Assembly: GCA_024278975.1 (NCBI GenBank) | Contig: JAJRSD010000109.1 | Location: 1 to 33,046 of the forward strand | Direction of reading: 5' to 3' | Length of the DNA stretch: 33,046 nucleotides | Source of the DNA: Bacteroidota bacterium | GTDB taxonomy: Bacteria; Bacteroidota; Bacteroidia; Bacteroidales; Prolixibacteraceae | Shown: positions 515-18,252 of the stretch, in pieces | Numbering within the stretch: the stretch's first letter is position 1 | How the letters are laid out: each line of letters begins with the position of its first letter | The notes under the pieces: generated by a model | Told to the model about the DNA's origin: nothing | The model's input: the letters and a program-made list of their open reading frames with translations, nothing else | The model's database searches: none | Translations under genes and position numbers: made by a program

Positions 515-2767
515 TTATTGGTTTCCCGAAAAAACTAATTTTCCACCCTTTCTAATATTTTCATGGGTAATCATTGGTTCGATATCTTTTCCGTTCCACT
601 CGACTTTTGTGAAAGGATTCCGGTTAATACTCGATTTAGCTTCAATGGTAAACCTTTTCCCGTGATAGTATTTTTTATCGAGTTTTAGCGTTACTTTATC
701 GAAAATAGGGGCTGATAGCTGGTAACTGTTGCTACCTGGGCATGTAGGGTAAAACCCAATGGAGCTAAATACATACCACGCAGACATTTGTCCGGCATTG
801 TCGTTTCTCGACAATCCTTCAGGACTCATACCGTATTGGGTTACCACTATATCTTTTACAACTTTTTGTGTCTCCCCCCAGTTTTCAACGGCATTGAAAA
901 GATAAGGGATTTGCTGACTTGGCTCATTCCCCGGCCACAGCCCGTTATGTTTTACCAACTCAATTAATTTTTGCTGAAATTGATTTTTGCCACCCATTAT
1001 TTCTATCAGTCCTTCAGCATCGTGCGGGGCGAAAAAAGAGTACTGCTCTGGAGTTCCTTCGGTAAGATAAGGCATTAAAGTACTGGCATTAAATTCATTG
1101 GTGAAAGTATCGTCGGCAAACTTTCCACAAACAAAGTTTTTCTCAAGATCAAATAAATTGGAGTAATTATACGACCTAAGTAAAAGGTTTTTGTAATCAT
1201 CCATCTTCCCAAGCTTCTTTGCCATTTGGGCAACACACCAATCGTTGTAGGCATATTCAAGTGTTTGCGAAACTTGTCCTCCATTTTTGTCTGTGCCTGC
1301 CAATGCTTCTTCCAGTGGAATGTAACCTAATTCGATATACGAATCAAGGTTACGCCTGCCTTTTCCGTTATTATAGTCAATAAGTTCAGGCAATTCAAAA
1401 GCATTCTTCTGTAAATAATAGTAGGCTTTGTTGTAATCGAAGTCGAATCCTTGCATGCACGCATCCGCAATAATTGTTGCGCTGAAATCTCCAACAGCCA
1501 CAGATGAATAGTTGTTCATTAATGAAGCCGACGGGAGCCAGCCGCCCTGTTCTGCTTTTGCAATAAGCGACTTTATCATGCCGGTGTACTCATCCGGTAC
1601 CACTAAACTTAGAAGTGGCATCTGGGTGCGGTACGAACTTTCTGTGGCAAAATCGCCATAGTATTCAAACCCATTGGCAATGTGGATTACAGTATCATCG
1701 GCAAAACCGCAATATTCACCATTAACATCGCTAAACAGCCGTGGTTGCAACAATGAGCGATAAAAAGAAGAGTAAAACTTTGTCTGCTCATCAAGGTTGT
1801 CACTTTCTATTTCAATCCTGCCGAGTATTTCATTCCACGTTTTTTCTAAATCCGTTTTTATGTTGTTAAAATCCCAAGCAGATATTTCTGAATCCAGATT
1901 CTTACGCGCATTTTCTATGCTGGTAAACGAAGTGCCAATTTTCATCTTCACTGGCAAATTGTTGTTCAAATCGAAGGTAACAAATGCCCCAATTTTATCC
2001 ATGTTTTTTCTTTGGTTTACACCAAACTCATAATCCATTCCCGTGTATGTACCTGAATTTACAATTTTTGTGTCGAATTTTGCAACAAAATATCCTGCAA
2101 AACCATCTGTAGTGCCCTCTTTAGCATTGGGAAGGGAAACCGGATTGTAGCCATAAATTTCTTCACTTTTCCTATCCACTTTAATAAACCCTTTCCCATT
2201 ATCACTATTGATATCAATAATAATAGCAGGCAGGTTCGGCGTGAGCCACGAGAATTTAAAAATAGCCGACCGTTTTGTTGCTGTTAACTCTGTAATAATG
2301 TTTGCCTCTGGCATCAGAATTGAGAAATAGGCGGGAGACGCAAATTCTGAATTATACATGTACATTGTTTCGCGCTGCCCGGGCAAAAACCGGTAACTAC
2401 CTTTTAAACTTGTAGGAAATACAGTAAATGAGCCATAATCTTTTGAACGCGAACCATTTAGCCAGTGAGTTCCCCTAAACCCTTGAAACCTTATTCGACC
2501 TGAAAAAAATGGAGGAATGCCTTTCTGCTCCGTAGATTGCGACTGAAGTGTCCATTGGGTCATTCCAAAAGGAGCAGAAACCGACGGGATTGTAAGCCCA
2601 CTGCTAACATATTCATCCCCTCTGCTATTTTCAAAATTTGAAACCGGGAAAGCCGTCCCAATAAGAGGATCGACATATTGAAGGTAGTTTTTTGTTCGTG
2701 TTTTGTTGCACGAGTTCAAAAAGACAACAAACAACAGGAGTAAAAAACTGAGTCGGACTGTTTTCAT
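515..2767 (-). CDS. GH92-family glycoside hydrolase, lipoprotein, atypical active site
   Basis: Predicted 750-aa surface or periplasmic lipoprotein: hydrophobic signal followed by a lipobox ending at Cys20 (FLNSC). The length fits GH92, a family of calcium-dependent exo-alpha-mannosidases. Family hallmarks run in order: YVDPLIG (31-37), APFGM (65-69), GTHWLNG (99-105), GGWLPS (408-413), TLEYAYNDW (502-510), LTEG with Glu570 as probable general acid, PHDAEGL (581-587), NEPSQQIPY (614-622) and NDNAGQMSAWY (655-665). Two positions look unusual: the catalytic-base block, normally ending in Asp before xGQ, has Asn657, and the usual NEPSHH is NEPSQQ. Mannosidase activity is therefore doubtful; an altered substrate or loss of activity is possible. 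It is transcribed divergently from susC, which suggests a shared glycan target, probably a mannose-containing one. Confidence 0.88.
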   Translation of the reverse strand: MKTVRLSFLLLLFVVFLNSCNKTRTKNYLQYVDPLIGTAFPVSNFENSRGDEYVSSGLTIPSVSAPFGMTQWTLQSQSTEQKGIPPFFSGRIRFQGFRGTHWLNGSRSKDYGSFTVFPTSLKGSYRFLPGQRETMYMYNSEFASPAYFSILMPEANIITELTATKRSAIFKFSWLTPNLPAIIIDINSDNGKGFIKVDRKSEEIYGYNPVSLPNAKEGTTDGFAGYFVAKFDTKIVNSGTYTGMDYEFGVNQRKNMDKIGAFVTFDLNNNLPVKMKIGTSFTSIENARKNLDSEISAWDFNNIKTDLEKTWNEILGRIEIESDNLDEQTKFYSSFYRSLLQPRLFSDVNGEYCGFADDTVIHIANGFEYYGDFATESSYRTQMPLLSLVVPDEYTGMIKSLIAKAEQGGWLPSASLMNNYSSVAVGDFSATIIADACMQGFDFDYNKAYYYLQKNAFELPELIDYNNGKGRRNLDSYIELGYIPLEEALAGTDKNGGQVSQTLEYAYNDWCVAQMAKKLGKMDDYKNLLLRSYNYSNLFDLEKNFVCGKFADDTFTNEFNASTLMPYLTEGTPEQYSFFAPHDAEGLIEIMGGKNQFQQKLIELVKHNGLWPGNEPSQQIPYLFNAVENWGETQKVVKDIVVTQYGMSPEGLSRNDNAGQMSAWYVFSSIGFYPTCPGSNSYQLSAPIFDKVTLKLDKKYYHGKRFTIEAKSSINRNPFTKVEWNGKDIEPMITHENIRKGGKLVFSGNQ

Positions 2768-3188: not shown

Positions 3189-6100
3189 ATGGAAAAAAAT
3201 TATTTTAAAGGTTTTATAACCTTTTTGTTTTTTACGATTTCAATCGTAATCTCTCTGGGTTCTCAGGCACAAACTCAAGTGTCCGGAAAGGTAACTGATC
3301 AGGACGGAATGGGTGTGCCCGGAGTAACTATTGCAATTAAAGGAACCACGCAGGGCACAATTACCAATATTGATGGTGCGTATCAAATAGCTGTTAATGA
3401 AGGCTCTTCTTTGATATTCTCCTATATTGGGATGCTTACCCAAACAATTGAAGTGGGAAGCCAAACAACAATTGATGTTCAGCTTAGCCCCGATGTAATT
3501 GGCGTTGACGAAGTTGTTGTGGTTGGTTACGGTACCCGGATGAAAGAAGAACTTACCGGTGCTGTGTCAACAGTTTCGAACGAAAAGCTACAAGTATCAA
3601 CCGAGTCGAGCGTTGTAAGCCGCCTTCAGGGCCATGTTTCCGGAGTAACAGTTACCTCATCGAACATACCGGGAGGAAGTGCAACAATACGAATTCGTGG
3701 GGTGGGAACCGTTAATGATCCTAATCCACTATACATTATCGACGGAGTACCAACCAGTCCGGGAAACAATCTCAGTCCCGGAGATATCGAATCGATTTCG
3801 ATATTGAAAGATGCCTCTTCGGCTGCAATTTATGGAACAAGGGGTGCAAATGGTGTTATAATTATAACCACCAAACGCGGGCGTGCAAACCAACAGCCCA
3901 CAATTAAGTTCTCGGCAAGGGGTGGTGTTTCAAATTCCATTAATCAATACGACTTATTAAATACTAAAGAATATGCCGATGCTGTTTGGCTGTCATATGC
4001 GAACAGAGGTGCAGCACCTGTGCATGCACAGTATGGCTCGGGTTCAACTCCGGTTATCCCCGACTATATTTTGCCCGGCGGTGCAATGGAAGGCGATGCC
4101 TCGGTTAATCCCGACCTGTACAATTACCCTAGCTATGTCATATTCAAAGCAAACAAAGAGGGCACAAACTGGTACGACGAGATCTACCAAGCCGGTGTTG
4201 TGCAGGAATATGATCTCTCTGTAAGTGGCGGTGGTAAAAATGCAACCTATGCTTTCTCGGGAAACTATCTCAATGAAGACGGAACACTAAAAAATACCAA
4301 TTTTAAAAGATATACTTTTAGAATGAACTCTGATGCCAAATTTAATGACTGGTTTAAAATTGGCGAATCGCTACAGGCAATTTACACCAAACAGACTGGT
4401 AATCTGGGCGACAACGGTGAGGGAACGGTTATTTCACAAGCCTATCGTGCTCAGCCAATTATTCCTGTTTACGACATTAACGGCCAGTTTGCAGGTTCTA
4501 AAGCCCCAGAAATGGGAAATGCCAGCAACCCGGTGGCAATGCTCGACAGGGCTAAAAACAATACCGGAGAATGGGTGCGTATTCTTGGAAATATTTTTGG
4601 CGAATTTAACCTTTATGAAGGACTAACTGCTAAAACATTACTTGGCTATAACTACGGACAATGGAATTCTAAATCGTATGTTTTACCAACCTATGAACAT
4701 TCAGAACCCAATAGGGTAAACGGGTTAAACGTTGGGTCAAGTTACTCGATGCAGTGGAACTGGTCGAACACAATTAACTATAATAAAACCTTTGCCGATA
4801 TACATAAACTTAATGTAATTGTTGGAACTGAGTCAATCGAAAACAGGTATCAGTACCTCAATGCAAGCCGTCGTCAGTATTTTGCGGAAACACCTGAATA
4901 TATGCAACTTAATTCAGGCGAGAGCAACAAAGAGAATAGCGGGTCAGGTTCAGAGTGGTCGTTATTTTCGATTTTTGGACGCGTTAATTACGATTTAAGT
5001 GGTAAGTATTTTCTGGAGGCTACAGTCCGTCGCGATGGTTCTTCTCGTTTTAGTTCCGTAAACAGGTACGGAACTTTCCCGGCAGCTTCCGCTGCATGGG
5101 CAATATCGGAAGAGAGTTTCATGTCGAATACAGACAACTGGTTAGACTTGCTTAAGGTTAGATTAGGATGGGGTGTTGCAGGAAACGATAGAATTGGTAA
5201 CTACAACTCTTATTCGACTTATGGTACAGATACTTACAAAGCATCGTATGCACTCGATGGATCAAATACCAGTGCTGTTTCAGGTTTCCGCCCAGCAACT
5301 TTGGGCAACGAAGATGTAACATGGGAAACAACTGAAACAATTAACCTTGGTATCGATGCTAACATGTTAGACAACCATCTTGCTGTTTCGTTAGATATTT
5401 GGAAAAGAAATACAAGCAATATGCTTTTTAGGGAGCCAATCCCACAGGTAATGGGAGTTGCAACTGCCCCGTATGTAAATATTGGCGAGATGCAAAACAA
5501 AGGTTTCGACATTGAAGTTGGGTACAATAATGCTTCTGCCGACAATAAATTTACATACAGTGCTAACCTTACATTTTCTCATTATAAAAACGAAATTATA
5601 AAACTTTCAGGAGACCCTGACAGGACAATAGATGCGGGAAGCAACCGCCAAATGACCTATACGCGGTATGCCAATGGAACTGCATTCCCTGAATTTTTCG
5701 GTTACGTTGTCGAAGGTATTTTTCAAACGCAAGCCGAGGTTGATGCGCATCCACAATATGGGTCCACAACCTATAACCAACCAGGACACTTTAAATTTCA
5801 GGATCAGCTTACCGTTGACACTGATGGGGACGGAGTACCCGATGCAACAGATGGAGTTATTAACGCCGATGACAGAACATTTATTGGTAGTCCACACCCC
5901 GATTTTACCAGTGGCCTAAACTTAGATTTTGGTTATGGGAACTTTGATCTAAACATGTTCTTTTACGGCAGCTACGGAAATGAAATGGTTAACTACGTTA
6001 CCCGTTGGATAGACTACGGTATGTTCAATGGCGGACTAAGTAAAGATGCACTTTACAACTCGTGGGGAAGCCCATATTTAGATAACAATGCTAATGCAAA

Positions 6101-6398
6101 GTTGCCCATGTTGGACCAAAGTGATATTTCGCAACAACCTTCAACCGCATTTGTTGAAGATGCGTCGTACCTAAGACTTAAAACCATGAGACTGGGTTAT
6201 ACACTTCCAAAAAACATTCTGGATAAAGCTCAAATTAAAAGTGTACGCATTTACGCACAAGTTACCAATGTATTTACCATTACCGGTTACAGTGGGCTCG
6301 ATCCGGAATACAATACTTCTGGCAGCGGCATGGGACTCGATAGAGGTGCATGGCCAACACCGAGACAAATTATGTTTGGAATAAACCTCGGATTATAA
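3189..6398 (+). CDS. SusC/RagA-family TonB-dependent glycan transporter
   Basis: Outer-membrane importer of oligosaccharides, energised through TonB, forming a lidded complex with the SusD-like protein encoded 25 bases downstream. The 1069-aa length is normal for SusC. Order of parts: signal peptide (1-28, ending SQAQ), a carboxypeptidase-regulatory-like beta-sandwich (about 31-100) with VSGKVTDQDG at its start, the TonB-box-like DEVVVVGYG (107-115), the plug domain (about 118-230) with LYIIDGVP, SISILKDASSAAIYG and ANGVIIITTK, then a beta-barrel to the C-terminus. No N-terminal STN signalling domain is present, so it probably does not act directly in sigma/anti-sigma signalling. It ends GINLGL rather than in the usual terminal Phe. 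A weak Bacteroidota-type promoter lies upstream. Confidence 0.96.
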   Translation: MEKNYFKGFITFLFFTISIVISLGSQAQTQVSGKVTDQDGMGVPGVTIAIKGTTQGTITNIDGAYQIAVNEGSSLIFSYIGMLTQTIEVGSQTTIDVQLSPDVIGVDEVVVVGYGTRMKEELTGAVSTVSNEKLQVSTESSVVSRLQGHVSGVTVTSSNIPGGSATIRIRGVGTVNDPNPLYIIDGVPTSPGNNLSPGDIESISILKDASSAAIYGTRGANGVIIITTKRGRANQQPTIKFSARGGVSNSINQYDLLNTKEYADAVWLSYANRGAAPVHAQYGSGSTPVIPDYILPGGAMEGDASVNPDLYNYPSYVIFKANKEGTNWYDEIYQAGVVQEYDLSVSGGGKNATYAFSGNYLNEDGTLKNTNFKRYTFRMNSDAKFNDWFKIGESLQAIYTKQTGNLGDNGEGTVISQAYRAQPIIPVYDINGQFAGSKAPEMGNASNPVAMLDRAKNNTGEWVRILGNIFGEFNLYEGLTAKTLLGYNYGQWNSKSYVLPTYEHSEPNRVNGLNVGSSYSMQWNWSNTINYNKTFADIHKLNVIVGTESIENRYQYLNASRRQYFAETPEYMQLNSGESNKENSGSGSEWSLFSIFGRVNYDLSGKYFLEATVRRDGSSRFSSVNRYGTFPAASAAWAISEESFMSNTDNWLDLLKVRLGWGVAGNDRIGNYNSYSTYGTDTYKASYALDGSNTSAVSGFRPATLGNEDVTWETTETINLGIDANMLDNHLAVSLDIWKRNTSNMLFREPIPQVMGVATAPYVNIGEMQNKGFDIEVGYNNASADNKFTYSANLTFSHYKNEIIKLSGDPDRTIDAGSNRQMTYTRYANGTAFPEFFGYVVEGIFQTQAEVDAHPQYGSTTYNQPGHFKFQDQLTVDTDGDGVPDATDGVINADDRTFIGSPHPDFTSGLNLDFGYGNFDLNMFFYGSYGNEMVNYVTRWIDYGMFNGGLSKDALYNSWGSPYLDNNANAKLPMLDQSDISQQPSTAFVEDASYLRLKTMRLGYTLPKNILDKAQIKSVRIYAQVTNVFTITGYSGLDPEYNTSGSGMGLDRGAWPTPRQIMFGINLGL

Positions 6399-6423: not shown

Positions 6424-8265
6424 ATGAATAATATGAAAAAACTATCAATATTAATGGTTACAATACTTTTATTGTCCATGTCATATTCATGTTCAGAAGA
6501 TTTTCTGACAAAAGCACCACTCGGTTCCACATCGGAAAACGTTTTTTACGATGCAAAAGGAATTGATGCCTTATTGACCGGAACCTATGCAATGGTTGGC
6601 GGAAGCTCGTTATGGGACGTTTCATGGGGTGCCTCAATTCAAAACTGGACTTACGGTTCAACTGCATCCGACGATGCTTACAAAGGCTCTGAGGTAACCG
6701 ATCAGGTTCCTGTTAACGACATTGAGCGCTGGGAGGTACAAAGTACCAATGGTTACCCTGCAAATAAATGGAAACTATGTATTGGCATGGGTGTTGACCG
6801 TACCAATAAAACACTTAAAGTTATTAATGCAACCGAAGAGGAAGGTAAGATTACAGCATCCGAAGCAAATAGCTTCAGGGCTGAAGCCCGTTTTCTCAGG
6901 GCTCTTTTCAACTTCGAAGCCCGTTTGGTTTTTGGCGATTATATACCAATAATTACCGAAGAGACCGAAGATGCCGCATTGGTATCAAACGTAAATCCTG
7001 AAGATGCTGTGTTGAACCATATAATTGCAGACCTTGATTTTGCAATTGAAAACCTTCCTGCAACACAAAGTCAGGTTGGCCGCCCAACAAAATTTGCTGC
7101 TATGGCGTTGGCAGCAAGGGCTTTTTTGCAGGACCTTAAGTACGACAAAGCAAAACCGTTGCTTGATGAAATTATCAACAACACCGAACACAGTTACTCA
7201 TTAATGCCCAATTTTATCGATAATTTCAACATCGAGACAAATAACAATGCAGAGTCTATTTGGGAAATTCAGGCAAATGTGAACGATATCAGCCAATCGT
7301 TAAATGCAGAAATGGGAATAGGTTTAAATTGGCCACACGGTGGAGATATTGGCATGTGCTGTGGTTTTCACCAACCATCGCAAAACCTTGTGAATGCATA
7401 TAAAGTTGACGAAAACGGATTGCCGTTGTTCAATTCATTCAACGATTCAGACCTTGCCAATGATGCAGGAATTTCATCAGACGAAACTTTTGTTGTTGAT
7501 TCGCATCCGGTAGATCCACGCCTTGACTATACAGTTAGTCGAAGAGGAATTCCTTATAAAGACTGGGGAATTAACCGAGGTAGTAACTGGGTGCGCAAAC
7601 AATCTGACGGAGGTCCTTATTTGCCCGTATCAAAACCTTTCTTTAAAAAATCGGAGCGTTACACGTTGTCAACCACAACAGGCTGGATGAGTGGAATAAA
7701 TGCCAATAATTATCGTTACTTACGTTATAGCCACATTTTGCTTTGGAGAGCCGAAGTTGCAGCTTACGAAGGCGACCTAGGTTTAGCACGCACGCTGGTT
7801 AACCAAATTCGCGAAAGAGCTGGCCATAAAGTGGTCATGGGAAAAGTTTTGATTAACGAACTTCCAACTTCAGTATATCCATGGGGAGAAGGTTCTTCCG
7901 ACGGTGATTACATGACTGGTGGTGCTGTTGATTGGTCGCAACCAGCAGCCAACTATAAAATTGGGCTTTACCCAGCATTCGCCAATAAAGAAGAAGCCAT
8001 GACGGCAGTTCAGTGGGAGCAACGATTGGAGTTTGCCACCGAAGGTTTTAGGTTCTTTGATTTACGCAGATGGGATAATCTGCCAAATAAAATTGGTGGA
8101 AAAAGTATGGCAGATATATTAAATTCTTTTGCCGTCGGCGATTTAAGAACGAGAGCTTCGTTTATGCAAGGAGCTAACTTCAACGATGCCGACAAATACC
8201 AGCCTATTCCACAATCTCAACTCGATCTTCAACCAGATGTTTTGGAACAACGTCCTGGTTATTAA
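6424..8265 (+). CDS. SusD/RagB-family glycan-binding lipoprotein
   Basis: Surface lipoprotein that binds the glycan and acts as the lid of its SusC partner. It has 613 aa, a signal peptide and a lipobox ending in the Cys of SYSCSEDFL. SusD hallmarks are FLTKAPLGS near the N-terminus, the RAEARFLRALFNFEA helical repeat region (about 151-165), and the C-terminal signature WEQRLEFATEGFRFFDLRRW. It ends with PQSQLDLQPDVLEQRPGY, close to the usual IP..E....P.. ending of the family. An alternative ATG lies three codons downstream (6433) and would give a more typical MKKLSIL start. The gene lies 25 bases after susC and is followed by a strong terminator, so the two form one transcription unit. Confidence 0.95.
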   Translation: MNNMKKLSILMVTILLLSMSYSCSEDFLTKAPLGSTSENVFYDAKGIDALLTGTYAMVGGSSLWDVSWGASIQNWTYGSTASDDAYKGSEVTDQVPVNDIERWEVQSTNGYPANKWKLCIGMGVDRTNKTLKVINATEEEGKITASEANSFRAEARFLRALFNFEARLVFGDYIPIITEETEDAALVSNVNPEDAVLNHIIADLDFAIENLPATQSQVGRPTKFAAMALAARAFLQDLKYDKAKPLLDEIINNTEHSYSLMPNFIDNFNIETNNNAESIWEIQANVNDISQSLNAEMGIGLNWPHGGDIGMCCGFHQPSQNLVNAYKVDENGLPLFNSFNDSDLANDAGISSDETFVVDSHPVDPRLDYTVSRRGIPYKDWGINRGSNWVRKQSDGGPYLPVSKPFFKKSERYTLSTTTGWMSGINANNYRYLRYSHILLWRAEVAAYEGDLGLARTLVNQIRERAGHKVVMGKVLINELPTSVYPWGEGSSDGDYMTGGAVDWSQPAANYKIGLYPAFANKEEAMTAVQWEQRLEFATEGFRFFDLRRWDNLPNKIGGKSMADILNSFAVGDLRTRASFMQGANFNDADKYQPIPQSQLDLQPDVLEQRPGY

Positions 8266-8286: not shown

Positions 8287-8318
8287 AAAGAGGGGGGCTG
8301 TTTAGCCCCCCTCTTTTT
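8287..8318 (+). terminator. Strong rho-independent terminator after susD
   Basis: Perfect 13-base stem, AAAGAGGGGGGCT (8287-8299) and AGCCCCCCTCTTT (8304-8316), with a GTTT loop and a T-rich tail. It separates the susCD unit from the downstream GH5 operon. Confidence 0.92.
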
Positions 8319-8363: not shown

Positions 8364-8394
8364 TTTGTAATGCAGTTTCAATTCACTATTTTTA
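8364..8394 (+). promoter_or_regulatory. Bacteroidota-type promoter of the GH5 operon
   Basis: TTTG (8364-8367), a spacer of exactly 19 bases, and TATTTTTA (8387-8394), which matches 7 of 8 bases of the TAnnTTTG -7 box. The start site would be near 8401, just upstream of the ATG at 8424. With the terminator before it, this makes the GH5 gene the head of a separate unit. Confidence 0.6.
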
Positions 8395-8423: not shown

Positions 8424-9515
8424 ATGAAAAACTTAATTCCTATTATTAGCCTTTTCTTCCTGTTTTCATGCCAGACTAACACAAATAAAAATACCGAAAA
8501 ATTTGAAGTAAAACGCGGAACCAATGTTGCTCACTGGCTTTCGCAAAGTGGTAAAAGAGGTGTCGAACGCGAAAATTTTATTACAAAGCAAGATATTCAG
8601 AATATTGCTGAAATGGGTTTCGACCATGTTCGCCTGCCCATCGACGAAGAACAAATGTGGGACGAAAACGGTAACCGCCACGACGATGCTTTTAAAATAA
8701 TGACGAATTGTATCGACTGGAGTATTGAAAACAGTATGCGGGTAATTGTTGATTTGCATATTTTACGCTCGCACCATTTTAATGCTGATGTAAAACCACT
8801 TTGGACAGACCCCGCCGAACAGGAAAAATTTTACGATTTGTGGCGCAACCTTTCTAAAACACTAATTAAATACCCGAACAGTTCGGTTGCTTACGAATTG
8901 ATGAACGAAGCCGTTGCCGACGATCCTGAACTTTGGAATAATCTGGTTGCAAATGCAGTAAAAGCAATTCGCGAAATTGAGCCCGAACGAACTATTGTTA
9001 TTGGCTCTAATAAATGGCAGCAGGTTCAAACATTCGATGTTCTGAAAATTCCCGAAAACGATAAAAATATTCTACTCAGTTTTCATTTTTACGAACCATT
9101 TCTTTTAACTCATTACAATGCTGGCTGGACAAATTTAAAAGGATACACCGGGCCCGTTCATTATCCGGGAGCAATTTTAACACAGGAAGAATTTGATAAA
9201 CTGCCGAAAGAGATGCAGGATATTTCTAAAAGATGGGTGAACAAAGAATTCAATAAAAAATGGATCCTGGAGCAGTGGCAAAAACCAATCGAGAAAGCAA
9301 AAGAGTTGGGTCTTCCTTTATATTGCGGCGAGTTTGGTATAAATGCAGGACCACCTGCCGAGGATGTTTTAAACTGGTACACCGATATGATTAAACTTTT
9401 TGAAGAAACTGGAATTGGCTATGCAAACTGGAATTATAAAAGCGATAATTTTGGTTTGGTAAATTCGGATGGGAAACGGAATGAGGAATTAATTGGAATT
9501 GTTTCGGCGAAATAG
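8424..9515 (+). CDS. GH5-family glycoside hydrolase (endoglucanase/mannanase-like) lipoprotein
   Basis: Predicted 363-aa retaining glycosidase with a (beta/alpha)8 barrel, acting outside the cytoplasm. The ATG at 8424 is chosen because MKNLIPIISLFFLFSC gives a clean lipoprotein signal with Cys16, and because an upstream in-frame start at 8370 would precede the promoter. GH5 hallmarks: RGTNVAHW near the start of the barrel (31-38), HVRLPI (68-73), VIVDLH (108-112), the acid/base Glu162 in ELMNEAV, HFYEP (221-225) and the nucleophile Glu303 in YCGEFG. Substrate cannot be told from the sequence; GH5 includes cellulases, mannanases and other beta-glycanases, and a beta-mannan would fit the neighbouring GH92-like gene. 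First gene of a probable four-gene operon. Confidence 0.9.
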   Translation: MKNLIPIISLFFLFSCQTNTNKNTEKFEVKRGTNVAHWLSQSGKRGVERENFITKQDIQNIAEMGFDHVRLPIDEEQMWDENGNRHDDAFKIMTNCIDWSIENSMRVIVDLHILRSHHFNADVKPLWTDPAEQEKFYDLWRNLSKTLIKYPNSSVAYELMNEAVADDPELWNNLVANAVKAIREIEPERTIVIGSNKWQQVQTFDVLKIPENDKNILLSFHFYEPFLLTHYNAGWTNLKGYTGPVHYPGAILTQEEFDKLPKEMQDISKRWVNKEFNKKWILEQWQKPIEKAKELGLPLYCGEFGINAGPPAEDVLNWYTDMIKLFEETGIGYANWNYKSDNFGLVNSDGKRNEELIGIVSAK

Positions 9516-9584
9516 TGCAATTCAATATTATTAAAGCAATTATTATAAATTAGCATCATATTAAATTAACTAAACTTTATAATT

Positions 9585-12248
9585 ATGATTTCAAATATCA
9601 AAAAATTTGGGAGTGTTTTTGTCTCTCTGTCTTTACTTCTGATTTTCACTCAGGTTCAAGGTCAAAATCTCAATCAATATTCAATTCCGGAATCTTCTAC
9701 ATTAGGAGAGCCAACAATAAAAACTGAGTTTCAGTTTAACGGATACACAAATTACTGGCACGATACGTACACCAATCAGTATCGGTATGGGAATCTATTT
9801 AAAATGGCTGTATCAGATGTTGAAAAGACAATTCAACAAAGTAAAGTTGATATTGCCGAAGATTTAGGAATACCCGGTTTTATTATGCAGGATGGATTTA
9901 TGACAGGGTTGCTTTCAGAAAAATATGCACTTTTAAAACAACCTTCTACCAATGAACTGGAGCGTAAACTCAAAAAAGGAAATGTACTGGTTTTTGTTGA
10001 TCCGGGTTCGGATGTTGGTAAAAAACTAATTGAAAAACTGCCGCCAAATAAATGGCCTGAAATTTTAAAAAGCCATCAATACGATGCTGTTGATTTAAAA
10101 TGGGCTAACGCTTTTTATCTCGAAAATGGAAATACGAAACTGTTTGTTGTAAGTTCTGCTGACCAGAATACACTCGACAAGGTAAAAGACCAAATTGATA
10201 ATGCAAAAGAGATTGTTGAAAAATATGATTTTCATAAAGGATGGTTTGGTGCTTACACTTTGCTTAACAGTGTTACTTGTACTCCCGGGCATCCCATTGA
10301 AGTTATGGGTAAAGGAATGAACGAAGGTTGCGACTGGTTTGTTTTTGAAGGTTATATGGATTTCATGTCGAAAGATGAAATTGCCGGTTGGATTGACGAA
10401 GTGAAATTACCGGTTGTTACCGATGTGGGAGCTACAAATCTTTTTGGATGTAAAAACTGGGACGGTTTTCAAATTCAGCAGATGTACGACAAAGAGTCGT
10501 GGATAAAAGCAGCCAAAGAGCGAGAAGGATATGTATTCAGGAATGTGTTGGATTTAGAAGCCGATCCGTACACTTACGATGGCTATTTTGCTCAGGAAGG
10601 TAATAAATTTCAGATTGATAATGAGGATGTGCCATTTGTATTAAAAACCGGAAAACTGGAAGACAATGCTCTGTCGAGTATGGTTTTATTCTTAAAAAAA
10701 GGAGAACAACTGACGCAGGAAAGTATGTGGGAATCCATTCTCGACCGTCGTGAAGTGGGTGTAATTGCCAAAGGGAAAATGATGGGACCGGCTAATTTCA
10801 GAAATGCGCTACAAATGCTTCTGTTAGACCGCCTGTTTTTGGAAGAGTATTTTGGCGACAGAATTAATATGGAAACTTCTACTGATGGTTATGATTTGCA
10901 GGTAACTGTAACGAATTCTTATTCTCATTCGGTTTCGGGTAATTTAAAATTAGTTTTGCCACCACAAATCAAAATAAAAGAAGATATTTCGGTTGCTGCT
11001 ACTTTGCCTGCAGGCGCATCAATCACAGTACATTATCCGTTAATTCCAACTGCTGCTGCAATGGACAATGCAAATTCGATAGCTGTTCATTTTAATTGGG
11101 ATAAAAAAGAGAAGAGTACACTTGCCTTGCTCGATTTACCACCTGCAATTTCGGTACATCGGCTTTTGTATGGGCACACGCCAAAAGTAGCCTATCCGGT
11201 TACTATCCATAATTTTACCAACGAAAAATCATTTCCTGTAAAAGTAGAAGTTCTCGATGGCGAAAATGTTGTTTTTGAAGCTACGCAGCAGTGCGAAACA
11301 CCACAGTCAACTTTTAAAGATATGGTATTCGACCTTGAACTTCAACCCGGAAATTACAATGTAAAAGTTTCGGCAATGGGAGTTGATTACACGTCGCAGT
11401 TAGGAGTTGGAAAAGCAGAAGGAAGACCGTATGCTTATGAAATTGATATTAATAACGACGGTGTAAAGGAGTTCAGAATGGAAAACGATAGTGTGCAAAT
11501 TACACTTCTACGAACAGGTGCCCGTGTTATTGAATATATTGTAAAAAGCCGCGAAGACAATGTTCTGTTTAAATTATGGCCGAAAAAAGCCATTGACGAC
11601 AAAGGTGCTTTTAGGGAAAGAGGTTACTATCCGTACGGTGGTTTCGAAGATTTTCTGGGGCAGGCAAGTATGGAAACCCACCAGATTTATAATGCCGAAC
11701 TGGTTAAAGCCGATGGCGATTATGTTCGTGTAAGAATGTGGACCGACTATTACGGAAACCGTATTGAAAAGACATTTACATTGTATGGCGACACACCATT
11801 GCTGGAGGTGCGTTTTGCTCTTACTTTTAAAAATCGCGAAGCAAATATGCTGGGGCCGCAGCCTATTCTCGAACTGGGTGAAAAGCACTGGACAGAGGAT
11901 GTATTTTATGTGCCAGAGACGAGTGGAATCCATGAATTCAGGATGAATCCGGATAAATATTACGGACAGGCATTCGAAATTAAAGAGGGGTGGAATTCGG
12001 GTTACGACACCAAAGAAGATATTGCTTTCGTGGGTGCATTTCCGGTTGACCAGCCGCTGTTTTTACACATGTGGCAAAATCATCCGAGCAATCCTTCAGC
12101 ACACCATTATTATGCTGAATTTCAGCCATGGCTGCCTATTTTTCAGAAAAGTACAATGTACTTTACCTATTATTTGTATGGTGTCGGTGGCCCGTGGGAA
12201 AATGGTGTAGAATGGTTGCGCGAAAGAAATTTAATTACTACAAGATAA
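9585..12248 (+). CDS. Large secreted protein of unknown function, paralogue 1
   Basis: 887 aa with a signal peptide (about 1-27, ending VQGQ). I do not recognise its family. Apparent layout: an N-terminal region (about 30-430) with conserved aromatic and acidic motifs such as NEGCDWFVF, VTDVG and YTYDGYFAQEGNK; two Ig-like beta-rich segments (about 440-530 and 535-610); a calcium-loop-like DINNDGVKEF near 621; then a C-terminal beta-sandwich (about 630-887) with GARVIEYIVKS, YPYGGFEDFLGQ and IEKTFTLYGDTPLLEVRF, which recalls galactose-mutarotase-like or lyase C-terminal sandwiches. No T9SS C-terminal domain is evident. It lies 69 bases after the GH5 gene without a terminator and 13 bases before its paralogue, so it is probably co-expressed and works on the same glycan. 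Enzymatic activity is plausible but not shown. Confidence 0.9.
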   Translation: MISNIKKFGSVFVSLSLLLIFTQVQGQNLNQYSIPESSTLGEPTIKTEFQFNGYTNYWHDTYTNQYRYGNLFKMAVSDVEKTIQQSKVDIAEDLGIPGFIMQDGFMTGLLSEKYALLKQPSTNELERKLKKGNVLVFVDPGSDVGKKLIEKLPPNKWPEILKSHQYDAVDLKWANAFYLENGNTKLFVVSSADQNTLDKVKDQIDNAKEIVEKYDFHKGWFGAYTLLNSVTCTPGHPIEVMGKGMNEGCDWFVFEGYMDFMSKDEIAGWIDEVKLPVVTDVGATNLFGCKNWDGFQIQQMYDKESWIKAAKEREGYVFRNVLDLEADPYTYDGYFAQEGNKFQIDNEDVPFVLKTGKLEDNALSSMVLFLKKGEQLTQESMWESILDRREVGVIAKGKMMGPANFRNALQMLLLDRLFLEEYFGDRINMETSTDGYDLQVTVTNSYSHSVSGNLKLVLPPQIKIKEDISVAATLPAGASITVHYPLIPTAAAMDNANSIAVHFNWDKKEKSTLALLDLPPAISVHRLLYGHTPKVAYPVTIHNFTNEKSFPVKVEVLDGENVVFEATQQCETPQSTFKDMVFDLELQPGNYNVKVSAMGVDYTSQLGVGKAEGRPYAYEIDINNDGVKEFRMENDSVQITLLRTGARVIEYIVKSREDNVLFKLWPKKAIDDKGAFRERGYYPYGGFEDFLGQASMETHQIYNAELVKADGDYVRVRMWTDYYGNRIEKTFTLYGDTPLLEVRFALTFKNREANMLGPQPILELGEKHWTEDVFYVPETSGIHEFRMNPDKYYGQAFEIKEGWNSGYDTKEDIAFVGAFPVDQPLFLHMWQNHPSNPSAHHYYAEFQPWLPIFQKSTMYFTYYLYGVGGPWENGVEWLRERNLITTR

Positions 12249-12261
12249 TTTATTGAAACAG

Positions 12262-14937
12262 ATGGTTATAAATAAAATTGGCTATTTCATAATTCTGCTT
12301 ATCTCTCTGAGTTCGTTGGTTTCTGCGCAGTCGCTCGACGGGTTTAAATATAACGAACAAGGTTATTCTTCAATTGACCCCGTGGTTGCCAATTTTCAGT
12401 TTAACGGTTATACCAACCATTGGCAGAACAATTACACGAAATTGTATCGAACAGGAAACCTGTTAAAAATTTCGGTTGATGATGTTGAAAAGAGTATTTT
12501 ACAAAGTAAAATAGATATTGCACAAGATTTGGGTATTTCGGGGTTGATTATTCAGGAGGGTTTCTTTTGGAATTTAAACAGAGAGTCGTACGAAGTTCTT
12601 GAACAACCTAAAAAAGATGAGCTTTTATTGTCGCTTAAAAAAGGAAATGTTTTAGTTTATGTAACACCCGGTTCGGAACTGGGGACGGAACTGACAGCGA
12701 CGATTGAAAAAACCATAACAAAATATAAAGCTTTAAAAAGTTACCAGTGGGGAGCGGAAAAATTAAAAAGAGTTGATGCTTTTTTCCTTCACAATGACTA
12801 TGGAAACAAAATTTTTGTTGTAAGCAGTTCAGATAATAATTTGCAAAATAAGTTTAACCAACTGCTCCAAAATACGCAAACCATTCTTGCAAAATACGAT
12901 TTTTATAAAGGGTGGTTTGGTGCAGAAACGTTGGCAAACAGTGTTTCAATAACTCCTGGAAAACCTATCGAAATAATAGGTAAAAGTTTAAACGAAGGAT
13001 GTAGCTGGATTGTGTTTGGCGGCTATTACGATATCTTTTTAAAAGATAAACTCGAACGGTGGTCGAATAACGTAAAACTGCCTTTTGTTACCGATGTAGG
13101 TTTTTCGCCAATTTATGGATGTAAAGATTACGACGGTTTTCAGGACAGGTTACTAACAGAAAAAAAATTGTGGGTTGATTTCGCTCATAAAAAAGAAGGT
13201 TATATTTTTAGAAGTGTGCTCGACCCGGCTGCCAATGAATACCTGTACGATGGTTATTTTGCTGTTGAAGGGAACAAAAAACAGATAGACAGTGAAAAGA
13301 TACCGTTTGTTGTAAAGGCAGGAAAAATGAAAGATAACCTTCTAAATAGCATGGTTTTATTTCTTAAAAAGGGAGAAGAACTGACACGGGAAAGTATGTG
13401 GAAAGCCATTTTAGAACGCCGCGAAGTGGGAGTTTTCGAAAAAGGATTAATGGTAGGACCGGCAAATTTCCGAAATGCTTTGCAAATGTTACTGTTAGAC
13501 AGAGTTTCGTTGGAGGAGTATTTTGGCGACCATATAAATATTGAGGCAACTACAACAGGATACGATTTGCAAGTAACAATTCGCAACGCCTATTCGCATT
13601 CGGTTTCAGGAAAATTAAATCTGGTTTTACCTGCCGAAGTGAGTATAGAAAAGCAAACATCGATTATCGTAGATTTACCTTCCGGAACAAATAAAACAGT
13701 TCATTTTACTTTACTTCCTTCGGCACAGGCAATGAACGATGCTAACCCAATCTCAATTCAGTTTAATTGGAATGGCAAAACTAAAAATGCGTTGGCAATG
13801 CTCGATTTGCCGCCCGTTATTTCTGCAAATCAATTATTGTACGGGCACACACCAAAAGTAAATTATCCGGTTACCATTCATAATTATTCCGATAAATTTT
13901 CATTTCCTGTAAAAGTTCAGGTAATTGAAAATGAGAATGTTGTTTATGAAGAAACGCAAATATGTGAAACTCCGCAGGCAACGTTTAAAAGTATGCTTTT
14001 TGAATTGAAAGTGCCTGCAGGAAACTACAATGTAAAAGTTTCGGCACTTGATGTTGAGTTTTCGTCGCAACTTGGAGTTGGCAAGGCCGAAGGATTTTCG
14101 CGTGCCAAAACCGTTGATTTAAACAACGACGGGGTAAACGAATACCGGCTCGAAAACGACAGTGTGCAGGTAACACTGCTGGCAACCGGCGCACGGGTAA
14201 TCGAGTACATTGTAAAAAGCCGCAACGATAATTTGCTGTTTAAACTCTGGCCCGAAAAAGTTATCGACCACAAACGGCCGTTTCGCGAAAGGGCATTTTA
14301 TCCGTACGGCGGTTTCGAAGATTTTCTGGGGCAGGGAAGCATGGAAAACCATAAGATTTATAATGCCGAGATTGTAAAATCGGAGGGCGATTTTGTTCGT
14401 GTTCGAATGTGGGCAGATTACTACGGCAACCGTATAGAAAAAACGTTTACGCTTTATGGAAATTCTCCTTTGCTGGAAGTGAGGTTTGCTCTCACTTTTA
14501 AAAATCAGGAAGCAAATTTGCTGGGGCCGCAGCCAATGCTTGCACTTGGTAAAAGGCAATGGACAGAGGATGTTTTTACAATTCCCGAACTCGATGGAAT
14601 TCACGAATACCGGATGCGTCCTGAGCATCGTTACGGAATGGTTTTCTTTTTAAAAGAGGGATGGAATGCTGGTTACGATACAAAGGAAGACATCACTTTT
14701 GTGGGTGCATTTCCGGTTGACCAACCCATATTCTTACACATGTTTTTAAATGAACCGGGGAATCACGACACACACTATTGTTATGGCGAATTCCAGCCCT
14801 GGGTACCCATATTTACTAAAAGTACAATGTACTTCTCTTACTATTTTTGGGGAGCGGGAGGAGTGATTGACAATGGAATTAGCGAGTTACGAAAACGAAA
14901 TCTAATAACAATAACTAAAAAAAATATAGCTGACTAA
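12262..14937 (+). CDS. Large secreted protein of unknown function, paralogue 2
   Basis: 891 aa from the ATG at 12262; an in-frame TTG at 12253 is possible but less likely. Signal peptide MVINKIGYFIILLISLSSLV followed by SAQ. It is collinear with the preceding gene along its whole length, with higher similarity in the C-terminal half (for example LLYGHTPKV, SFPVKV, GNYNVKVSA, SQLGVGKAEG, YPYGGFEDFLGQ) than in the N-terminal half. Shared motifs include NEGCSWIVF, FVTDVGF, YLYDGYFAVEGNK, MVLFLKKGEELT, GPANFRNALQMLLLDR and DLNNDGVNEYRLE. This is a tandem duplication, with the diverged N-terminal part perhaps giving different specificity. No known family is recognised. It sits 13 bases after paralogue 1 and 21 bases before the next gene, within the same operon. 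Confidence 0.9.
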   Translation: MVINKIGYFIILLISLSSLVSAQSLDGFKYNEQGYSSIDPVVANFQFNGYTNHWQNNYTKLYRTGNLLKISVDDVEKSILQSKIDIAQDLGISGLIIQEGFFWNLNRESYEVLEQPKKDELLLSLKKGNVLVYVTPGSELGTELTATIEKTITKYKALKSYQWGAEKLKRVDAFFLHNDYGNKIFVVSSSDNNLQNKFNQLLQNTQTILAKYDFYKGWFGAETLANSVSITPGKPIEIIGKSLNEGCSWIVFGGYYDIFLKDKLERWSNNVKLPFVTDVGFSPIYGCKDYDGFQDRLLTEKKLWVDFAHKKEGYIFRSVLDPAANEYLYDGYFAVEGNKKQIDSEKIPFVVKAGKMKDNLLNSMVLFLKKGEELTRESMWKAILERREVGVFEKGLMVGPANFRNALQMLLLDRVSLEEYFGDHINIEATTTGYDLQVTIRNAYSHSVSGKLNLVLPAEVSIEKQTSIIVDLPSGTNKTVHFTLLPSAQAMNDANPISIQFNWNGKTKNALAMLDLPPVISANQLLYGHTPKVNYPVTIHNYSDKFSFPVKVQVIENENVVYEETQICETPQATFKSMLFELKVPAGNYNVKVSALDVEFSSQLGVGKAEGFSRAKTVDLNNDGVNEYRLENDSVQVTLLATGARVIEYIVKSRNDNLLFKLWPEKVIDHKRPFRERAFYPYGGFEDFLGQGSMENHKIYNAEIVKSEGDFVRVRMWADYYGNRIEKTFTLYGNSPLLEVRFALTFKNQEANLLGPQPMLALGKRQWTEDVFTIPELDGIHEYRMRPEHRYGMVFFLKEGWNAGYDTKEDITFVGAFPVDQPIFLHMFLNEPGNHDTHYCYGEFQPWVPIFTKSTMYFSYYFWGAGGVIDNGISELRKRNLITITKKNIAD

Positions 14938-14958
14938 TAATAACTAAATATAAATATC

Positions 14959-16779
14959 ATGAAAAAGTATTCACTAATTATTTTAAGCATCGTTTTTCTG
15001 TTGATTCCATCGTTTGTTGCTAACGCAAAAGAGAATAAAACAGGAGAGCTGAAAGTGAACAGAATCGAACTTGGATATCCGTGCCCTGCTATTCCTTTCT
15101 ACCATTTTATTGCTGAATTGGAACTGCCGGAGGCATCGATTATTGAGGTTGAAACCGCGGTTGATGATAAAGTTCTGCGTTTTAACGACCTTCACAAAGA
15201 GAACGAAATTACCGATATGAATCGTCCCGCACTTAGTCATCGTCCACCGTCGGGTTACGGTTTGTCGCAAGACGGAACTCTTTATAAGAATCCGCATGTT
15301 GTGGGTTGGTTTAAATGGGAGCCGGGCAAAGATTATAAAGTAACTATTAGAGTTAGGTTGAAAAAAGATATTCATGCTTCGGAAAACGATAAGAATTTAA
15401 CAGCAACAATAACTTTAACAGCACCAAACGAAGCCGCTGTTTTCAGTAGAGAATGGAAAAGTTACAAATCGGTTGTGCTGTCGGAAACTGCCGGAATGGA
15501 AAGGAAATCGGAGCCGGTTGAAATACTGTTATCATTTTACCCCGATGAGTCGGAACATATAAAACGCGATATTCGTGTTATTGCTGTTGATCCTAAAACT
15601 CATGAAATTACCGAAATTCCAAGTCAGGTTTACGATGTTAAAAAGTTCTTAGAGGAAGATCCTCTTGACCCGGACGAGAATGGAAACCCTACCCGCGAGA
15701 TTCCTTTTTGGATGCCAACAGTAACTGCAAGGGTTGCTTTCCTTGCTGATGTTCCGGCTAAATCGAGTAAAGTATTTTTGGTTTATTACAACAACGAAAA
15801 TGCACTTGCCAAAATGTATAAAACAGATCTTCGTATGCAGGGCGAAGCACCGGGATTACGAATAGACAACGATAAACTTTCAATTGTGTTACATCCAAAT
15901 TCCGGTCATTTAGATCAGATTACATTAAAAAGCAAGCCGCAAAACCCACTCTTTCACCGCATGGAGACAAACGGGGCAATCCACTGGAATCCCGGGGTTT
16001 ATGCACCGCCACGTCCGTGGACACACACTGCCGACTGGAAACCACCAACAAATGTAAAATTTATGGCGGGTCCTGTAATTTCAACTGCCGAAATGTGGGG
16101 GAATTTACGTGAGCTGCCCGAAGTTGATGCATCTGTTCGTTACGAGTTTTATCCGGGAGTTCCATATTTTATAAGTTCAACTTCTATGCGGATTAATAAA
16201 CGGGTTGACTGTATCGCACTGCGTAATGGCGAGATTGTATTTAAACGCGAACTGATGACTCATGCTGCCTGGTACGATGCAATTAGCGATAGTGTAATTA
16301 TTTACAATGTTGCAGAAATGCCCGACCTTGCCGACCTGTTTTTGGAAGCAGATGTTCCATGGATTTCGTTTTATAACGAGGAGACCGGAATTGGTTTCTG
16401 TGGAATTCAACTCAGTTACTCCAACGCCGGGTTAGAAACACGTCCGCGACTGTTAAATCCTTATATGTACATAACTGCCGGGCCGTGGATCTACTGGGCG
16501 CGAGCTTTATCGTTAAGCTTTTTAGCATCGAATATGCAACAGGTAATTCCTGCAATGGAAGGAAACTTCTTTTCGGAAAAATGGGCATATCTTACATACG
16601 AAATCGATAAAGGCGGCAATCCGCTTAAACCCGTATTCGAGTGGCAAAAAAAGTTAAACAATCCACTGAGAATACGTTTGGTCGAAGAAGTTGACGAGCG
16701 GGTTTCGAGAACAGTTAACGAAATATTTATTGATGAAGGGAAAAGTGGTTGGGAAAATCGTGAATCCAGCAACCATTAA
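14959..16779 (+). CDS. Secreted protein of unknown function with beta-sandwich segment
   Basis: 606 aa with a signal peptide (1-23, ending VANA). It is the last gene of the GH5-headed operon, 21 bases after paralogue 2. I do not recognise the family. The first 200 or so residues look beta-rich; a central part (about 295 onward) begins LRIDNDKLSIVLHPNSGHLD, then ITLKSKPQNPLF, echoing the ENDSVQITLLRTGARVIEY and KSREDNVLF pattern at the start of the C-terminal sandwich of both neighbours. Next comes GAIHWNPGVYAPPRPWTHTA, rich in aromatics and His, then RYEFYPGVPYF and a C-terminal stretch with SFYNEETGIGFCGI. The composition fits a carbohydrate-active beta-sandwich (lyase- or mutarotase-like), but no catalytic residue can be named. 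Possible roles are an accessory enzyme or a binding protein for the same substrate. Confidence 0.88.
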   Translation: MKKYSLIILSIVFLLIPSFVANAKENKTGELKVNRIELGYPCPAIPFYHFIAELELPEASIIEVETAVDDKVLRFNDLHKENEITDMNRPALSHRPPSGYGLSQDGTLYKNPHVVGWFKWEPGKDYKVTIRVRLKKDIHASENDKNLTATITLTAPNEAAVFSREWKSYKSVVLSETAGMERKSEPVEILLSFYPDESEHIKRDIRVIAVDPKTHEITEIPSQVYDVKKFLEEDPLDPDENGNPTREIPFWMPTVTARVAFLADVPAKSSKVFLVYYNNENALAKMYKTDLRMQGEAPGLRIDNDKLSIVLHPNSGHLDQITLKSKPQNPLFHRMETNGAIHWNPGVYAPPRPWTHTADWKPPTNVKFMAGPVISTAEMWGNLRELPEVDASVRYEFYPGVPYFISSTSMRINKRVDCIALRNGEIVFKRELMTHAAWYDAISDSVIIYNVAEMPDLADLFLEADVPWISFYNEETGIGFCGIQLSYSNAGLETRPRLLNPYMYITAGPWIYWARALSLSFLASNMQQVIPAMEGNFFSEKWAYLTYEIDKGGNPLKPVFEWQKKLNNPLRIRLVEEVDERVSRTVNEIFIDEGKSGWENRESSNH

Positions 16780-16926: not shown

Positions 16927-18252
16927 ATGAAAAGGATTTTGTTTCTGTTTGCTTTCAGTTTAATGTTTATTCCGGTTTTTTCTCAAGATAAAGAAGAGGT
17001 TGCAAAAGAGGGTTGGAATTTTGGAGCACTGCCCACAATTACATTCGATACCGACCTTGGATTTCAGTATGGAGCACTTGTAAATTTATACAACTACGGC
17101 GATGGGAGCAATTACCCAAACTACAACCACTCGTTGTACTTCGAAGTCTCACGTTTTACAAAAGGGAGCGGTATCAACCGGTTTTACTACGATTCAGACG
17201 AATTAATAAAAGGACTGCAAACTTCGGTTGATATTAGTTATCTTTCCGACCAGGCGTACGATTTTTATGGATTTAACGGTTACGATGCTGTTGTTAATCC
17301 CGACTGGGTTGACGACACAAGTCCCGACTATGTATCGCGAATGTTTTACAAATACGACCGAAAAATGTTCCGATTCAAGGTAGATTTATTGGGTAAACTT
17401 TCGGGTGAGAAACTGAAATGGGCTGCAGGTATCAACTTCCTGAATTTTAAAGTTGCACCTGTTAATTTAGATAAATTAAACGATGGCAAGGAGGGAGACG
17501 ATTTACTTCCTGATGTGGATGGATTGTACGATAAATATATAGCAAACAACATTATTTCTGAAGAGGAAGCCGATGGAGGTTTCGTACCGGTTTTAAAAGC
17601 AGGATTGGTTTACGACACACGCGACAACCGCCCTAACCCGATGAAAGGAATCTGGACAGAAGCCGTTTTAATTGGTGCTCCCGGGTTTATAGGTGCTGAA
17701 ACTTCATTCACAAAATTAAGCTTAACACACCGTCAGTATTTTACAATTATTCCCAATAATTTGTCGCTCGCTTACCGATTGGCATACCAAACAACCCTGA
17801 GTGGCCATGTACCATATTACTATCAAAGTCAGGTAATTACTTCGGTTATGAAAGGTGCCAGCTCTGAAGGGCTTGGCGGTGCAAAATCGCTTCGGGGAGT
17901 TCGGCGCAACCGGATTGTTGGAGATGGCTTTTTCTACGGAAACATTGAAGCTCGATGGAAATTTGTCCGCTTTCAATTCATCAACAATAACTTCTACCTC
18001 GGATTAAATGCGTTTATGGATTTTGGTCAGGTTACCAAAAAAATTGATGCGAGCTTTAATAATCCTTCAATTTCAAGTGACGATCCAGTTGATTATTTTG
18101 ATATCGGTTCTGAACAAATGCACATTTCGTATGGTGCGGGATTGCGGATTGTAATGAACCAAAATTTCATTATTGCAATCGATTATGGTGTTGCTGCCGA
18201 CGAACGCGATGGCGATTCAGGACTTTATATTGGGTTGAATTATCTGTTTTAG
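16927..18252 (+). CDS. BamA/TamA (Omp85)-like outer-membrane beta-barrel protein
   Basis: 441 aa with a signal peptide (1-19, ending VFSQ). It has features of the Omp85 surface-antigen barrel: [14 protein letters not shown] (strand and turn typical of the first part of the barrel), [14 protein letters not shown] (a variant of the conserved RGF/Y motif of the L6 loop) and a C-terminal strand ending LYIGLNYLF. The N-terminal [19 protein letters not shown] replaces POTRA domains, so this is a short, POTRA-less member, common in Bacteroidota, and unlikely to be the essential BamA. Function unknown; an outer-membrane channel or secretion role is possible. It lies 147 bases after the glycan operon, which may mean a separate promoter. 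Its 3' end abuts a truA remnant on the other strand. Confidence 0.85.

Follow-up and report, generated by a model that had tools for sequence, protein, structure and literature searches.

The locus studied here raises the question of whether a glycan-related gene cluster of a Bacteroidota bacterium contains new carbohydrate-active protein families, and whether these are functionally tied to the glycosidase gene that precedes them. The window (the whole stretch of DNA analyzed, 33,046 nt) belongs to a 4.65-Mb genome and carries four consecutive genes, which encode a glycoside hydrolase family 5 (GH5) lipoprotein and three proteins of 887, 891 and 606 amino acids (aa). The original prediction had described these genes as one operon, and the last three products as secreted proteins of no recognized family, candidates for new carbohydrate-active families linked to GH5 and to the adjacent SusC/SusD pair of a polysaccharide utilization locus (PUL). 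The 887- and 891-aa proteins (A1 and A2) were found to be paralogous (62% identity over 867 columns), so that the unnamed families are two, A (A1 and A2) and B (the 606-aa protein), and the count of three separate families was rejected. The locus probably consists of a GH5 gene added locally to a two-family module that is older and widespread and whose activity is directed at glycans.

Loci with A were collected in one scan of a species-representative genome collection, recruiting by two peptide motifs in the beta-sandwich of A; locus counts cover the best 80 of 124 confirmed stretches, which gave 77 loci. Nearly all were titled Bacteroidota or one of its groups, with one Aminicenantes bin and one Chlorobiota bin in addition. 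In 60 of the 77 loci, A and B were same-strand neighbors; in one, both were present but non-adjacent, and 16 had no B. A lay directly 5' of B in 59 loci, with a median gap of 33 bases (100 bases or fewer in 53 of the 59). Among 40 relatives and the window genome, both families were present in the same 9 of 41 genomes. Pairwise distance matrices of A and B were correlated across 51 one-to-one loci (r 0.71, with none of 2000 permutations as high), common phylogeny being included in this correlation. The conserved unit was the A-B pair, which mostly travelled together through Bacteroidota.

At least two A genes were present in 12 of the 77 loci. In a FastTree phylogeny, A1 and A2 each grouped with its counterpart from another Draconibacterium, in different branches, each holding other genera too, with the A2 branch being the older one; the duplication therefore looks older than the genus. 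A search for A in a 395-genome sample of the phylum returned only the window genome and one weak match in the immunoglobulin (Ig)-like region (E 5.4e-4), so that the family appears rare and sharply bounded in the samples searched. A profile search for B in 295 genomes of the order gave two further matches, one full-length B, with no A in the 472 bases remaining upstream on its contig, and one of 39 residues at a contig end. No match for B was obtained in a plasmid search.

The GH5 gene was not distributed with the pair. A GH5-like gene was detected in a single one of the 77 loci (BLAST with the window GH5, 26% identity), many loci being cut short by contig ends, as was the nearest relative locus (L040), where A begins at the contig end. 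In the same genus, of which 15 of 24 genomes were searched, the best homologue by E-value was 31% identical, and two homologues of 45-46% identity came from another family's genome, in which A and B were found neither next to them nor elsewhere. GH5 was rejected as a conserved member of the module on the count of 1 in 77 loci and the absence of a close same-genus homologue in these searches, and the predicted linkage to GH5 was not supported as a conserved one. The gene looks like a local addition to the older A-B module and therefore gives no clue to the A-B substrate. Membership in GH5 was clear (PF00150, 141.1 bits against a cut-off of 23.5, E 6.5e-41), with E162 (NEAV) and E303 (CGEFG) as candidate catalytic residues by sequence, on the assumption that the NE and GE motifs hold the acid/base and nucleophile Glu of the family. 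A relation of A to GH5 was rejected by comparison.

Both A and B remained nameless in sequence searches, in agreement with the original prediction. The window proteins A1, A2 and B had no Pfam match above cut-off and no NCBIfam match at E 0.1. Searches of the PDB gave nothing credible with single proteins (best E 0.016 for A and 1.8 for B), a best E of 0.15 with the profile of A (85 members) and no match with that of B (57 members). No profile search assigned the three proteins to characterized families. Below threshold, AmyA-gluTrfs_C matched A2 (E 0.015) and 19 of the 50 A members scanned out of 85 (best E 0.015), CarboxypepD_reg matched 16 of the 50 (best E 0.0088), and every other family listed (25 of 36 were listed) matched at most three members each. 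Homology between A and B was rejected (hhalign probability 0.4%). No name for the A or B proteins turned up in the accessible portions of the literature searched, which does not prove that they are unpublished.

Structure prediction combined with Foldseek, to which the original prediction had looked for an assignment, gave a domain layout and weak fold resemblances (a mutarotase-like sandwich in A, GH38- and PL26-like beta-domains in B), with only weak template modeling (TM) scores, YidC among the matches of both proteins and no family assigned thereby. The model of A (85 rows; predicted local distance difference test 91.6, predicted TM 0.89) comprised a signal peptide, an alpha/beta domain (about 46-425), two Ig-like domains (about 426-612) and a mutarotase-like beta-sandwich (about 613-887), the limits being our own, drawn from DSSP and conservation, as Foldseek gives no ranges. 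The model of B (57 rows; 79.8 and 0.78, respectively) was all-beta except for short helices and that of the signal peptide. Beta-galactosidases, complement C3, protein 4.2, mutarotase-like proteins, the periplasmic domain of YidC and 5cd6 were among the PDB matches listed for A. Several mutarotase-like structures among them (TM on target 0.47-0.60) placed the C-terminal domain of A in the super-beta-sandwich fold, and the alpha/beta domain had no evident counterpart among the best 50 matches.

Strict conservation was concentrated in the sandwich of A and the second half of B. In A (85 rows), columns at least 97% identical per 100 positions amounted to 30.2 in the sandwich, 12.1 in the alpha/beta domain and 5.3 and 14.1 in the two Ig-like domains, values biased towards the sandwich by recruitment through its two motifs; the sandwich still reached 28.2 after removal of 16 motif positions, and in 10 rows from a whole-protein search invariant columns per 100 were 43.3 in the sandwich and 19.5 in the alpha/beta domain. 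In B (57 rows), 34.5 such columns were counted per 100 positions in the second half and 21.7 in the first. The A sandwich (conserved residues GGFEDFLGQ.SMETH at 685-699, H828 and E845-F-Q-P-W849) and the second half of B were both rich in near-invariant acidic, His, Arg and aromatic residues. Because strict conservation is concentrated there, the sandwiches appear to be the working parts of A and B.

We consider it reasonably probable that A and B are two unnamed secreted, mostly periplasmic glycan-active families, forming a functional pair on the same saccharide. This reading builds on the observed linkage, correlated divergence, domain layout of the models and site of conservation, and goes by inference beyond them. 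The working site of A would be the pocket of its C-terminal sandwich (685-699, H828, E845-W849), with the alpha/beta and Ig-like domains possibly acting as scaffold or substrate-positioning parts, and B may likewise be an enzyme, or else a partner that binds the glycan of A through its own sandwich. Applied to the window, this reading would have a polysaccharide cut at the cell surface by the GH5 lipoprotein and the pieces imported by SusCD, with these pieces, or their side groups, as targets of A1, A2 and B in the periplasm.

The predicted signal peptides were recovered as signal-peptide-like N-termini in A1, A2 and B, without a lipobox; a lipobox-like pattern was present in the GH5, SusD and GH92 proteins of the window. 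A broad regular expression that recognizes these three matched 11 of 85 A and 6 of 57 B, several within the hydrophobic stretch and hence doubtful, and found no lipobox in the other 74 and 51, respectively. Because a lipobox was seldom found, the majority of A and B proteins are probably soluble, in the periplasm or secreted, rather than surface lipoproteins. One clade of A (7 of 85 members, judged by eye) has a lipobox, beta-sandwich and Ig-like domains form B and more than half of A in the models, and CBM9-like proteins are frequent neighbors of the pair, all of which would suit non-catalytic glycan-binding or scaffold proteins, periplasmic or at the surface, with a role akin to that of surface glycan-binding proteins. 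We regard this alternative as rather unlikely, as most members have no lipobox and the strict conservation of the A sandwich and the second half of B is unlike that of binding proteins, which usually diverge fast.

GH38 mannosidases and a PL26 lyase were the top PDB matches of B (8-11% identity; 3lvt of GH38, E 1.3e-11; 5xqg_F of PL26, 560 columns, E 1.2e-8), followed by GH36, GH174, mutarotases and YidC, and DUF4861 matched 3 of 57 B members below cut-off (best E 0.025). B could thus be an enzyme by itself, a polysaccharide lyase or a hydrolase built on a PL26- or GH38-like beta-sandwich, and A its accessory. This is unlikely, since neither window B nor any of the 57 members matched PcRGLX-type Pfam domains (at E up to 1), GH38 or, at gathering level, DUF4861, and the model of B displays no alpha/alpha domain. 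The assignment of B to DUF4861 or PL26 was rejected: hhalign against one PcRGLX protein and 12 DUF4861 proteins was negative, and the cut-off of PF16153 was not reached.

In BFVD, a viral PHP-domain protein ranked third among the fold matches of A (E 1.2e-7, prob 1.0, TM on target 0.37, root-mean-square deviation 17). As a CehA/McbA-type PHP domain, the alpha/beta domain of A was rejected: the hhalign global score of 3.9 was beaten by 6 of 20 column-shuffled decoys (0.1-13.3), hmmsearch for this relation gave nothing (best E 0.23), and no PHP or NF038032 match was found for window A or in the families listed for scanned A members. Because profile comparison fails to support the fold hint, PHP kinship is a lead only. 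We think it improbable that A and B form a new kind of two-component system for glycan processing in which a beta/alpha barrel of A descends from a metal-dependent PHP hydrolase and lost its metal ligands, catalysis has moved to the mutarotase-like sandwich, B completes the reaction, and the pair was repeatedly inserted beside diverse glycosidases to serve generally in the breakage of a common linkage or modification. A PHP domain lacking metal-coordinating residues is known from E. coli DNA polymerase III (PMC3666897). A by-eye guess that the alpha/beta domain is GH20b/GH67N-DUF4838-like was not significant in hhalign and was rejected.

The predicted carbohydrate context of the proteins was borne out by their neighborhoods. 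Immediate neighbors of the pair (110 of 128 eligible scanned) included CBM9_2 (14), SusD-like (10), DUF4838 (5), GFO/IDH (4), GH109, GH92 and GH78 (3 each). In controls (110 of the 197 eligible genes that stand five or more genes away within these loci; proteins shorter in sum, 34,412 vs 49,492 residues), CBM9, SusD-like, DUF4838, GH92, GH78 and GH109 had fewer than two members each; GFO/IDH and sigma-70 had at least two, TonB Plug three, and one GH95 was found. Neighbors identified singly included GH127, GH29, GH109, GH31, GH116, CBM9, GH42-like, GH78, DUF4838, GH27 and GH95.

The link to SusCD proposed in the original prediction stood in part. Among loci with at least 7 kb of upstream and 6 kb of downstream sequence (n=35), SusC or SusD was detected in 16 (BLAST at E 1e-8 to the window proteins, or membership in neighbor clusters), leaving up to 19 of the 35 without either. 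This last count is an upper bound, because divergent SusC/SusD are missed: L115, counted as lacking them, is the same locus as L028, where a TonB-dependent-receptor Plug protein was found along with GH31, GH116 and CBM9 neighbors. The A-B pair is linked to glycan genes and, given the loci without SusC/SusD, is not strictly tied to PULs. Occurrence of the genes outside a PUL, named in the original prediction as a refuting result, was in part observed. These same loci, together with one Chlorobiota locus that adjoins respiratory-chain-like genes (judged by reading the N-termini of the neighbors) and the YidC periplasmic domain among the fold matches of both proteins, would be expected if A and B had a non-glycan role, e.g., in envelope maintenance, and had come to lie near carbohydrate loci by chance insertion. 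We consider such a role quite unlikely, as carbohydrate families were enriched beside the pair over distant genes of the same loci, and its patchy presence (9 of 41 genomes) is unlike that of a housekeeping function.

Several observations weigh against a glycan-active functional pair. In the genomes, 13 of the 16 loci without B have at least 3 kb of sequence downstream of A, neither of the two further genomes with B shows A (one is 78% complete), and the correlated divergence has its phylogenetic component. Around the pair, AA_kinase (5) and MMPL (3) were also found among the immediate neighbors, the neighboring enzymes are chemically diverse, neighbors from related loci are not independent, the controls had fewer residues, and up to 19 long-flank loci lacked detected SusC/SusD. 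Resemblance at the fold level is weak: among the matches listed, TM on query length reached at most 0.42 for B and 0.23 for A, and the highest TM on target for A (0.63) came from the YidC periplasmic domain. YidC is not a sugar enzyme, and it also appeared among the matches of B. No catalytic site was identified in A or B, and the lipobox counts depend on regular expressions, of which a narrower one missed known lipoproteins.

Other proteins recurred near the pair. A CBM9-like cluster (median 244 aa; one representative scanned singly) occurred within four genes of A-B in 15 loci (L055, L057, L059, L060, L062, L065, L067, L068, L070, L071, L074, L091, L105, L112 and L115), and may supply the module with a third partner. 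Loci from Tannerellaceae, Chitinophagaceae and a Proteiniphilum bin (L076, L082, L114, L102-L104, L113 and L116) carried, in the vicinity of A-B, DUF4838-type proteins whose N-termini are GH20b/GH67N-like (two members scanned singly). In 8 of the 77 loci, a DUF5107-TPR-like cluster (one representative scanned) came within four genes of A or B; its proteins of about 1040-1060 aa adjoined A or B in L059, L060, L098 and L111 and lay one gene away in L084. A relation of A or B to these DUF5107-containing neighbors was rejected, profile comparison being not significant (A against six neighbors).

The features of the window are collected in Table 1. The four open reading frames were open on the forward strand with intergenic gaps of 69, 13 and 21 bases, as predicted, and profile matches upheld the identities given to the GH5 (PF00150), SusC/SusD and GH92 (PF07971) proteins. 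The upstream terminator was likewise sustained by its fold (8287-8316; -26.7 kcal/mol, z -4.8, equalled by none of 200 shuffles). The promoter that the unit was thought to own fared otherwise. Its sequence (8364-8394) reads TTTG-19-TATTTTTA, one mismatch away from what we take to be the Bacteroides promoter consensus; exact matches to that consensus stood at chance level (1 in the window vs about 2 expected), the sole one lying away from this site, and the promoter is for that reason unproven, plausible but not above chance. No terminator-like site was found by the terminator scan from B to the next forward-strand gene, at 16927, so that the transcript may continue past B. This gene, directly downstream of B, encodes an Omp85-family outer-membrane protein (16927-18252). 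A 70% identical Omp85-family homologue also occurs close to A-B in L024/L079 (Draconibacterium aestuarii), separated from the pair by a GH109-like gene. A DUF4056 protein (PF13265, E 2.5e-51) is encoded farther downstream on the opposite strand (18447-19508).

Table 1. Genes and candidate control signals in and around the four-gene unit of the window.
Feature	Position	Strand	Remark
GH92 alpha-mannosidase-like lipoprotein (context)	515..2767	-	PF07971, E 1.2e-138
SusC-type TonB-dependent transporter (context)	3189..6398	+	
SusD-type glycan-binding lipoprotein (context)	6424..8265	+	
Strong intrinsic terminator between susD and the unit	8287..8316	+	13 pairs and T run
Candidate Bacteroidota-type promoter (putative)	8364..8394	+	one mismatch to Bacteroides consensus
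GH5 lipoprotein, 363 aa	8424..9515	+	alternative in-frame ATG at 8370 gives 381 aa
A1, family A copy 1, 887 aa	9585..12248	+	
A2, family A copy 2, 891 aa	12262..14937	+	upstream TTG at 12253 gives 894 aa
B, 606 aa, signal peptide, all-beta	14959..16779	+	

A and B had no name in the searched libraries although they were found together across Bacteroidota, in samples from marine, freshwater, soil and insect-gut sources (as inferred from record titles). Their pairing and conserved sandwich motifs could reveal a new carbohydrate-active enzyme family and fill a blank in the annotation of glycan loci.

Known systems resembled the locus in parts. The closest solved relative of the GH5 protein was the endoglucanase CelC of Clostridium thermocellum (1cec; near full-length, E 9.3e-58), from which the window protein differs in being a lipoprotein, in its Bacteroidota origin and in the SusCD genes around it. 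The alpha/beta domain of A looks similar by eye to PHP/CehA-McbA proteins in its strand order and a terminal ..GP motif; the candidate positions for HxH and TDH, which we take to be the PHP metal motifs, hold NLFKM and MQDGF. The TPR protein BDI_1685 (5cd6), in which DUF5107 presumably forms the N-terminal domain, was among the matches listed for A, which itself has no TPR match. The beta-domains of GH38 alpha-mannosidases (3lvt, 5kbp) were the best Foldseek matches of B; the model of B lacks the N-terminal alpha/beta metal-dependent catalytic domain that presumably characterizes GH38, and window B and the 57 members had no GH38 Pfam match. With the PL26 exo-rhamnogalacturonan lyase (5xqg), the alignment spanned most of B (TM 0.42, 8% identity), which differs in having neither a PcRGLX match nor, in the model, the C-terminal alpha/alpha toroid that we take to be a PL26 feature. 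GalM (4bze) and HI1317 (1jov), galactose mutarotase/aldose 1-epimerase-like proteins, matched part of A (TM on target 0.55 and 0.60, respectively); unlike in mutarotases, the sandwich of A is one of four domains, has no sequence match to them and carries its own near-invariant motif.

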